A stretch of DNA of 34,382 bases from Burkholderiales bacterium. GTDB lineage: Bacteria; Pseudomonadota; Gammaproteobacteria; Burkholderiales; SG8-41. This document shows positions 11,750-14,134 of this stretch, piece after piece. The notes beneath the pieces were generated by a model. The model made no database searches. It saw nothing but the letters and a program-made list of their open reading frames with translations, and was not told where the DNA came from. The stretch covers positions 1 through 34,382 of the forward strand of contig JAURHM010000036.1 of NCBI GenBank assembly GCA_030833315.1, written 5' to 3'. The translations under genes and the position numbers were made by a program. Numbering within the stretch: the first letter of the stretch is position 1; the number at the start of each line of letters is the position of its first letter.

Positions 11750-12343
11750 TTGTCCTTGTTCTCACAACTCGAGTTTCGATACGCTGTACACCAGATCACT
11801 GACATGCCGCCGGATGTCGGTGCGGAAGTTGCCTTTGCCGGTCGCTCCAACGCCGGTAAATCCACGGCCATCAATGCGCTGGCGAATCGACGCAAACTGG
11901 CCTTTGTCAGCAAAACACCGGGCCGCACCCAGGCCATCAATTTTTTCGACATGGGCAATCATTGCTCGCTGGTCGATCTGCCGGGCTATGGTTATGCCAA
12001 AGTGCCGAAGCCGGAGCAGGAGCGTTGGGATGCGTTAATAAGCACTTACATTACAAATCGCAATTCATTGATTTTATTGGTTATTGTTGTTGATGCTCGC
12101 CACGGCCTCAAACCACTGGACTGGCAGATGCTCGATTGGCTGGCGCCGACCGGCAAGGCCGTGCACATCCTCCTGACCAAATCGGACAAACTCACACGCC
12201 AGGAATCCACGGTCGTTTTACAGCGGACCGAAGAAGAGCTTAAGCAGTATCCCGGCGAAGCCACCGCGCAGATTTTTTCGGGCGCCAACAAGACCGGCGT
12301 CAAGCAGGCCCAAGCCGTGGTTGCGCGCTGGCTGAAGAAATAA
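11750..12343 (+). CDS. engB: Ribosome biogenesis GTPase EngB/YihA (YsxC)
   Basis: 197 residues. GTPase motifs are in order: G1 GRSNAGKS, G2 TPGRTQ, G3 DLPGYG, G4 TKSDK, and a G5-like SGANKTG. The protein is the small, single-domain TrmE-Era type needed for assembly of the large ribosomal subunit. The start is a TTG at 11750: the encoded SLFSQLEFRYAVHQITDMP matches family N-termini, GAGGA lies 8 bases upstream, and no in-frame ATG exists before it. The gene is divergent from cytochrome c4 (91 bp apart). Its stop codon overlaps the T-run of the minus-strand RNA terminator described at 12338-12450. Confidence 0.93.
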   Translation: MSLFSQLEFRYAVHQITDMPPDVGAEVAFAGRSNAGKSTAINALANRRKLAFVSKTPGRTQAINFFDMGNHCSLVDLPGYGYAKVPKPEQERWDALISTYITNRNSLILLVIVVDARHGLKPLDWQMLDWLAPTGKAVHILLTKSDKLTRQESTVVLQRTEEELKQYPGEATAQIFSGANKTGVKQAQAVVARWLKK

Positions 12344-12450
12344 AAAGCCCCCGGTAAAGGGGAGTAAACCGGGGGCGAAGAGCCTTAACTAGAATTAAGG
12401 CGCCCGCTCAGGGAGGAGAAACGGGCGACAGCCGAAGCCATCTTTTGTAT
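12338..12450 (-). ncRNA. Candidate small RNA with anti-Shine-Dalgarno loop and intrinsic terminator
   Basis: Read on the minus strand, the engB-hemB gap forms three adjacent hairpins. First, CGCCCG/CGGGCG (plus 12422-12427 with 12401-12406) with the loop TTTCTCCTCCCTGAG. Second, GCCTTAA/TTAAGGC (12401-12382) with loop TTCTAG. Third, a 9-bp stem GCCCCCGGT/ACCGGGGGC (12376-12347) with loop TTACTCCCCTTT, followed by TTTTTATTT. The last is a strong intrinsic terminator in this direction only; the plus strand has A, not T, after it. Two loops are C-rich and complementary to ribosome-binding sites (CTCCTCCC against GGGAGGAG). A TATAGT -10 candidate lies at plus 12462-12457, giving an RNA of about 110 nucleotides; its -35 is poor. 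No ORF explains the region. Strand and structure are seen; expression and function are inference. Confidence 0.6.
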
Positions 12451-12458
12451 CAGACGAC

Positions 12459-12464
12459 TATAAT
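12459..12464 (+). promoter_or_regulatory. -10 box for hemB
   Basis: A perfect TATAAT lies 63 bases before the hemB ATG, but no good -35 is found 16-18 bases upstream. It overlaps, on the other strand, the TATAGT proposed for the small RNA, so the two transcripts would start almost back to back. Confidence 0.45.
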
Positions 12465-12473
12465 CATGAATAG

Positions 12474-14134
<1,661 letters not shown>

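Follow-up and report, generated by a model that had tools for sequence, protein, structure and literature searches.

Related small RNAs in Proteobacteria

The enterobacterial sigma-E-dependent small RNAs MicA, RybB and MicL have a GGAACTT-type promoter and target outer-membrane proteins. Closer to the locus studied here is ncS04 of Burkholderia cenocepacia, the homologue of the anti-hemB RNA. ncS04 is reported as a 105-nt RNA with a 3′ end determined by RACE and a transcript detected by Northern blot, and it binds Hfq (PMC5688073; PMC4603805); the former study found it not significantly altered across the seven conditions of its Table 2 (PMC5688073). An anti-hemB prediction is also listed for B. 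pseudomallei in a further study (PMC3521395). Another set of relevant systems is formed by the double-hairpin RNAs of the Rfam family RF02278, which include ncS27/bdhR1 of Burkholderia and S17 of Bordetella pertussis and which carry CU-rich unpaired stretches able to cover ribosome-binding sites (PMC5688073; PMC11722255). S17 needs Hfq, has a sigma-A promoter and demonstrably represses a target, with which it pairs close to the ribosome-binding site (PMC11722255).

The RNA described here lies in a stretch of 34,382 nucleotides that was analysed as a whole (the window). It resembles RF02837/ncS04 of B. cenocepacia by covariance model, in its length of about 105 nt, in its anti-Shine-Dalgarno (anti-SD) loop and terminator, and in its place beside hemB (Burkholderia loci L016 and L017), but differs upstream, where the window's lineage has a sigma-E-type promoter sequence and the Burkholderia rows a sigma-70-like one. 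The CU-rich unpaired stretches are shared with the RF02278 RNAs, which nevertheless have two hairpins, measure about 60–70 nt in their short forms and belong to another family. C-rich loops in consecutive hairpins, as found here, are also a feature of sX13 (RF02232, Xanthomonas) and ar14 (RF02344, Alphaproteobacteria), although the matches of both models at the locus fall below their cut-offs (28.6 bits against 50, and 26.9 against 58.8, respectively). With MicA, RybB and MicL the window's RNA would have its control logic in common; their families are absent from the 14 matches listed at the locus for E up to 10, and the porin comparison described below does not support their target class here.

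An anti-hemB RNA with four hairpins between engB and hemB

On the plus strand, engB (11750–12343), which encodes a GTPase (PF01926 MMR_HSR1, 72.9 bits), is followed by hemB (12528–13538), which encodes porphobilinogen synthase (PF00490 ALAD, 454.8 bits). The minus strand of the gap matches RF02837, the anti-hemB family, at 12340–12428 with 72.4 bits (gathering cut-off 49.5) over model positions 1–81 of 81, the sole above-threshold Rfam match in the whole window. The first-pass annotation had placed a structured small RNA on this strand, likened it to families known in Betaproteobacteria and proposed a covariance-model scan of the locus; the scan was positive and names such a family. On this match, membership in RF02837 is virtually certain, and homology makes a real transcript at the locus very likely. 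A second RF02837 match in the same genome (G000:C77:30100, 32.2 bits, sub-threshold), downstream of a TerC-like gene, was set aside as it looks like a chance match to a terminator.

We aligned 31 rows from genomes of the window's family, beginning at the predicted start (alignment A1), and built a covariance model, R1, from them. R1 matches the window at 12339–12444 with 103.6 bits, the window row being among those used to build it. Together with the RF02837 match, this delimits a predicted small RNA of about 107 nt (12338–12444, minus strand, start predicted). Its hairpins do lie end to end as first described, but there are four rather than three. The one that had been missed, at 12442–12427, is a 5′-terminal hairpin (GAUGGC-UUCG-GCUGUC, with a UUCG tetraloop in the window) supported by the fold and by compensatory changes, and it lies outside the RF02837 model; the RNA as predicted is therefore larger than the Rfam model, with this hairpin ahead of RF02837. 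It is followed by the anti-SD hairpin H1 (12402–12426), whose loop UUCUCCUCCCUGA, read from sequence and fold, contains CTCCTCCC at 12418–12411, and by a middle hairpin, GCCUUAAU...GUUAAGGC (12382–12401), drawn from fold and alignments. An intrinsic terminator (12337–12376), indicated by sequence, fold and changes in its stem pairs, closes the RNA with an ACUCCCC loop (CTCCCC at 12364–12359), a 9-bp GC-rich stem and the U-tract in CTTTTTATTT. The anti-SD first loop, the CTCCCC of the last loop, the 9-bp stem and the tail had all been correctly read from the minus strand. The piece from 12443 to 12334 folds at −48.3 kcal/mol (z = −5.7), a stability equalled by none of 200 shuffles, and a longer piece of the same RNA reaches z = −6.4; sequence and fold thus uphold the proposal of a structured minus-strand RNA with two C-rich anti-SD loops.

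The complement of the small RNA's U-tract (12341–12347) contains the stop codon of engB (12341–12343), so that engB and the small RNA have their 3′ ends in common. The RNA had been described as antisense to the 3′ end of engB; the overlap exists, but it is trivial, with the U-tract covering the stop and last codons only.

Distribution and conservation

RF02837 was found over its cut-off in 66 of 74 genomes of the window's family. In the window's order, presumably Burkholderiales in the wide GTDB sense, it was over the cut-off in at least 252 of 399 sampled genomes of completeness ≥ 90 and had a match at E ≤ 0.001 in at least 305, these counts being lower bounds since strict filters were applied. 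Some genomes (G105, G148, G006) have two copies over the cut-off on different contigs, either paralogues or assembly duplicates. For comparison at the level of loci, the 30 best matches of each RF02837 survey were taken as family and order loci, so the order rows lean to high scores; R1 matches all 28 of the order loci. It also matches 53 of 80 named hemB loci. In the window the RF02837 segment (12340–12428, minus) adjoins hemB, which starts at 12528 on the plus strand, divergently, and the same arrangement holds for 53/53 named matches, on the strand opposite hemB and 52–312 bp upstream of it, among loci that were fetched via hemB and so cover hemB neighbourhoods. The 27 named loci that lack an R1 match include the gammaproteobacteria Xanthomonas, Methylobacter and Leucothrix, and among Betaproteobacteria Rugamonas, Janthinobacterium, Methylophilus, Polynucleobacter, Acidovorax, Delftia and Sutterella. 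Orthology with Xanthomonas sX13 by position beside hemB was considered and rejected, as 18 hemB loci gave no match to the family; the Xanthomonas hemB loci L056 and L070 had no Rfam match above threshold.

The named R1 matches together with the window gave a second alignment, A3, of 53 distinct rows. Changes on both sides are seen in 26 of its 28 stem pairs, and 96.6% of cells are paired, a figure reached by 0 of 500 shuffles in an alignment that was fitted to the model, which favours structure; no shuffled or slid control of A3 came near the observed pairing. The terminator stem has changes on both sides in all nine pairs of A3, while some of the terminator changes in A1 stem from one misaligned row (L112). 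The 5′ hairpin has compensatory changes in 5 of 7 pairs in A1 and 7 of 7 in A3. The core of the H1 loop, CCTCCCTGAG, is present in 31/31 and 14/20 family rows, 45/53 named rows and 24/24 order rows, or 114 of 128. Four of the 28 order loci (L119, L132, L134, L136) were missed by the loop pattern and stand outside the main promoter and loop counts; since all four match R1 and show, by eye, both CCTCCCTGAG and GGAACT-N17/18-TC, they are not contrary to this reading, and adding them brings the count to 118 of 132 rows. The CCUCCCUGAG loop is thus nearly fixed, whereas 26 of 28 stem pairs covary, the pattern that the first-pass annotation had proposed to look for in related genomes. Part of the window's genus (L327 of G014, L314, L316, L317 and L324) has a changed anti-SD loop, CUUCCCUCCCUGAG, and these rows are natural loop mutants usable for target tests.

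A sigma-E-type promoter sequence upstream of the RNA

Upstream of the RNA, the minus strand carries GGAACT (12477–12472), a spacer of 17 nt and TCTGA (12454–12450), an exact pattern match that we predict to be a promoter of sigma-E (ECF02) type (12450–12477) and that the first-pass annotation had overlooked; GGAACT-N17-TCTGA equals the sigma-E (ECF02) consensus. Across the family rows, these elements form the clearest conserved upstream block, besides a TATA sequence inside it. On a nine-position score, for which the consensus was fixed after the family rows had been inspected, every family row reached at least 8 (31/31 and 20/20, or 51/51) and 47 of the 51 reached 9/9 (28/31 and 19/20), compared with 2.6–3.3% and at most 0.06% of Markov-resampled sequence. 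GGAACT stands 33–34 nt from the first hairpin in 30 of 31 family rows measured. In the order loci, 22 of 24 scored at least 8 and 15 of 24 scored 9; in the named loci, 28 of 53 scored at least 8 and 12 of 53 scored 9/9 (null 0.9% and 0.06%). All 12 perfect named rows, comprising two Propionivibrio, Gallionella, Gallionellales, Sideroxydans, Nitrosomonadaceae, Nitrosomonadales and five other MAGs, have GGAACT at −32 to −34 from the first base of the model. On the opposite strand of the scored regions, a control in which the anchors are off for a few named rows, 1 of 128 reached 8 and none reached 9. The conserved extra hairpin and this promoter sequence are, as far as the literature searched goes, new for the anti-hemB family.

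The upstream sequence differs between lineages. Eight named rows from Paraburkholderia and Pandoraea that score 8 read GAAACTT...TATCATA, and these are ambiguous because this sequence fits a sigma-70 promoter too. The Variovorax and Ramlibacter rows instead have TTGAAA...TAAAT, which is sigma-70-like (one Variovorax row has TTGATC). The two Burkholderia rows beside hemB (L016 and L017) reach scores of 7 and 6; they lack a site where one would be expected and show sigma-70-like sequences.

The two elements of the minus-strand promoter sequence flank a perfect TATAAT on the plus strand (12459–12464), possibly the −10 element of hemB, and hemB and the small RNA may therefore compete for polymerase. 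The corresponding ATTATA is present in 43 of 51 family rows.

The window's genome encodes RpoE (322.6 bits, cut-off 236.15), followed by an RseA-type anti-sigma factor (RseA_N, 61.9 bits). GGAACTN16–18TCTNA occurs at 6 sites in this genome against 16 for the reversed control, which gives no independent sigma-E regulon, and the stretch ahead of rpoE yielded no GGAAC-based site. One candidate sigma-E site, close to a BepA-like protease (L217), was discarded, being just a few bases ahead of the likely start codon. Taking conservation, placement and the presence of RpoE together, we consider control of the RNA by sigma-E in this lineage quite likely.

Alternative readings of the locus

Several other readings of the locus were weighed against a trans-acting RNA under sigma-E control. 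The suggestion in the first-pass annotation that the RNA belongs to the "Betaproteobacteria toxic small RNA" family, RF02278, draws on the CU-rich unpaired stretches of both families, and the anti-hemB locus of one genome (G120:C1:4219090-4219180) does give a weak RF02278 cross-match (25.8 bits, cut-off 50). At the window's locus, however, the 14 matches listed for 12250–12600 at E up to 10 do not include RF02278, and the RF02278-like RNA of this genome sits separately, on another contig (G000:C19:6842-6907, L003; 31.1 bits, below the cut-off of 50). We give this assignment practically no chance; the sub-threshold cross-match in G120 might mean that RF02278 and RF02837 are distantly related. 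From its name, anti-hemB might be expected to act in cis on a neighbour, engB or hemB, through antisense pairing or by interfering with transcription. The geometry invites this: the RNA runs towards engB and away from hemB, the engB stop is overlapped by its U-tract, and in 34 of the 53 named matches engB is found within about 300 bp on the side away from hemB. Yet there is no overlap with hemB, the RNA is present in the other 19 named loci, where no engB was detected in flanks of at most 2 kb, conservation falls in the loops and not the flanks, and ncS04 binds Hfq (PMC5688073). Action in cis on either neighbor is accordingly very improbable.

More serious is the possibility that the small RNA is constitutive, under sigma-70, here too, with GGAACT/TCTGA forming part of the hemB control region or another binding site. 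The ATTATA/TATAAT between both elements in most family rows would fit, as would the good sigma-70 matches of the Variovorax-type rows (TTGAAA...TAAAT, e.g. 9 of 12 positions). The reported lack of a stress response of ncS04 (PMC5688073) points the same way and counts against sigma-E control, though the two Burkholderia rows are without the sigma-E motif. A hemB element or other binding site does not readily account for the fact that the elements keep the sigma-E spacing, orientation and near-constant position relative to the RNA, that they do so also in rows without the TATA sequence (L106 and L113; Gallionella, Nitrosomonadaceae and Propionivibrio), and that the opposite strand is almost devoid of them. 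Constitutive expression in this lineage thus appears rather unlikely, and sigma-E control is the reading that we carry forward.

Candidate targets

Since the CUCCUCCC loop is complementary to them, the obvious idea is that it blocks GGGAGGAG Shine-Dalgarno sequences (SDs). The window's own genome (G000) encodes at least 150 TctC/Bug solute-binding proteins (PF03401) in 3.1 Mb, and repression of these proteins, whose SDs are GAGGAG-rich in that genome, is at first sight an attractive reading. GGGAGGAG-N3–9-ATG occurs there at 7 sites (reversed control, 2), five of which start Bug genes. A comparison was made over the window and 40 further stretches, selected mainly for their Bug genes, with gene starts from a simple caller biased to strong SDs in both classes. 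GAGGAG preceded 39 of 119 Bug starts and 23 of 500 others; at matched ribosome affinity, pairing with the loop was stronger at Bug starts, at −12.4 kcal/mol as opposed to −9.5 at the others (p = 2e-7), a difference equalled by only 2 of 300 shuffled loops. Other genomes contradict what is strong in this one. GAGGAG is kept in 24 of 54 Bug genes of G014 despite its CUUCCCUCCCUGAG anti-hemB loop; G049 shares the CUCCUCCC loop yet shows no preference for GAGGAG (6/90 Bug starts against 5/169); the Bug SDs of G120 are mostly AGGAGACA-like, the complement of UUGUCUCC in its RF02278-type RNAs; and three genomes (G330, G347, G271) carry the RNA with no Bug match. Bug targeting by anti-hemB was rejected on the evidence of G014, G049 and G120, and we regard it as quite improbable.

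Porins and other outer-membrane proteins are the classic targets of sigma-E small RNAs. Among the outer-membrane proteins, Porin_4 genes were scored: in the 10 with a plausible start the loop paired at energies between −7.7 and −13.5, all short of the 10th percentile of the own-genome background (−14.7), and an eleventh (L344) starts too near the end of its locus to score. Porin targeting is not supported by these Porin_4 genes, which show no unusual complementarity. The best single candidate encodes a membrane protein (L155, with a DUF2189 match below the Pfam cut-off), whose SD, GGGGAGGAGG, ranks first among 500 sampled non-Bug starts. Three of its 12 usable congeneric orthologues (54–69% identity) pair at −19.9 kcal/mol or better, compared with 2 of the 500 background starts including the L155 gene itself; more distant orthologues mostly pair worse (best −17.1). 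The SDs of this DUF2189-like gene pair unusually well with the loop in L360, L363 and L365 (from G014, G015 and G028) as well as in L155. We treat the gene, shared only within part of the genus, as a lead. For anti-hemB, what was examined (Bug genes, porins and the top-ranking individual gene) supports no target class.

The Bug genes brought a separate observation. Their SDs (GAGGAG, GAGGAGA or AGGAGACA) correspond to the unpaired region of the RF02278-like double-hairpin RNA found in the same genome, as compared in the window's own genome, G014 (L331), G094 (L330), G120 (L329 and L332) and G049. In G049 there is no RF02278 match at E up to 0.1; it is the only genome of the five without one, and there the bias is absent. 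Because G014, G049 and G120 contradict a role of anti-hemB, the Bug SDs seem to follow RF02278 instead, in a sample of five genomes that includes three from a single family and just 14 sampled Bug genes from G094 and 11 from G120. These data suggest that a small RNA has co-evolved with a very large gene family. In line with this pattern, loss of Bordetella S17, a relative of the RF02278 RNAs, is reported to raise many transporter genes (PMC11722255).

A proposed role for anti-hemB

As the best overall explanation, we favour a trans-acting, Hfq-assisted anti-SD small RNA of the anti-hemB family under sigma-E control, an account that we consider fairly probable as a whole. The RNA would be transcribed independently and act in trans, probably assisted by Hfq. 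In this lineage the RpoE holoenzyme would most likely transcribe it once envelope stress leads the anti-sigma factor RseA to free RpoE. The 5′ hairpin and the terminator would protect the RNA, while the CCUCCC(UGA) loop, aided by the ACUCCCC loop of the terminator, would pair with GGGAGG-type Shine-Dalgarno sequences and so block translation of a set of mRNAs. Action by covering SDs is reasonably probable, and repression of many mRNAs is plausible. The analysis itself establishes family membership, structure, loop conservation, the conserved promoter-like sequence and the presence of RpoE and an RseA-type protein, while expression and Hfq binding have been demonstrated for the B. cenocepacia homologue; the use of the promoter by sigma-E, the repression and its targets are inferred.

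We also lean, more cautiously, towards a broader reading, in which anti-hemB may serve Betaproteobacteria as their RpoE-controlled anti-SD small RNA, corresponding to MicA and RybB but differing from them in sequence and origin. The RNA would have changed little while its control was rewired from lineage to lineage: the window's family, Gallionella, Nitrosomonadaceae and Propionivibrio would use sigma-E, Variovorax-type bacteria and Burkholderia would rely on sigma-70, and Paraburkholderia and Pandoraea carry the hybrid-looking GAAACTT...TATCAT. The promoter difference could explain why the Burkholderia homologue appeared unresponsive.

RF02837 is widespread, yet neither a function nor a sigma factor for anti-hemB was found in the open-access literature; the sigma-E-type promoter offers a testable hint of when the RNA is made. 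The locus would also illustrate how a promoter can be replaced while the small RNA behind it stays all but frozen. If the reading is true, anti-hemB would be a stress-controlled blocker of protein synthesis in this lineage, acting via the envelope-stress (sigma-E) switch.
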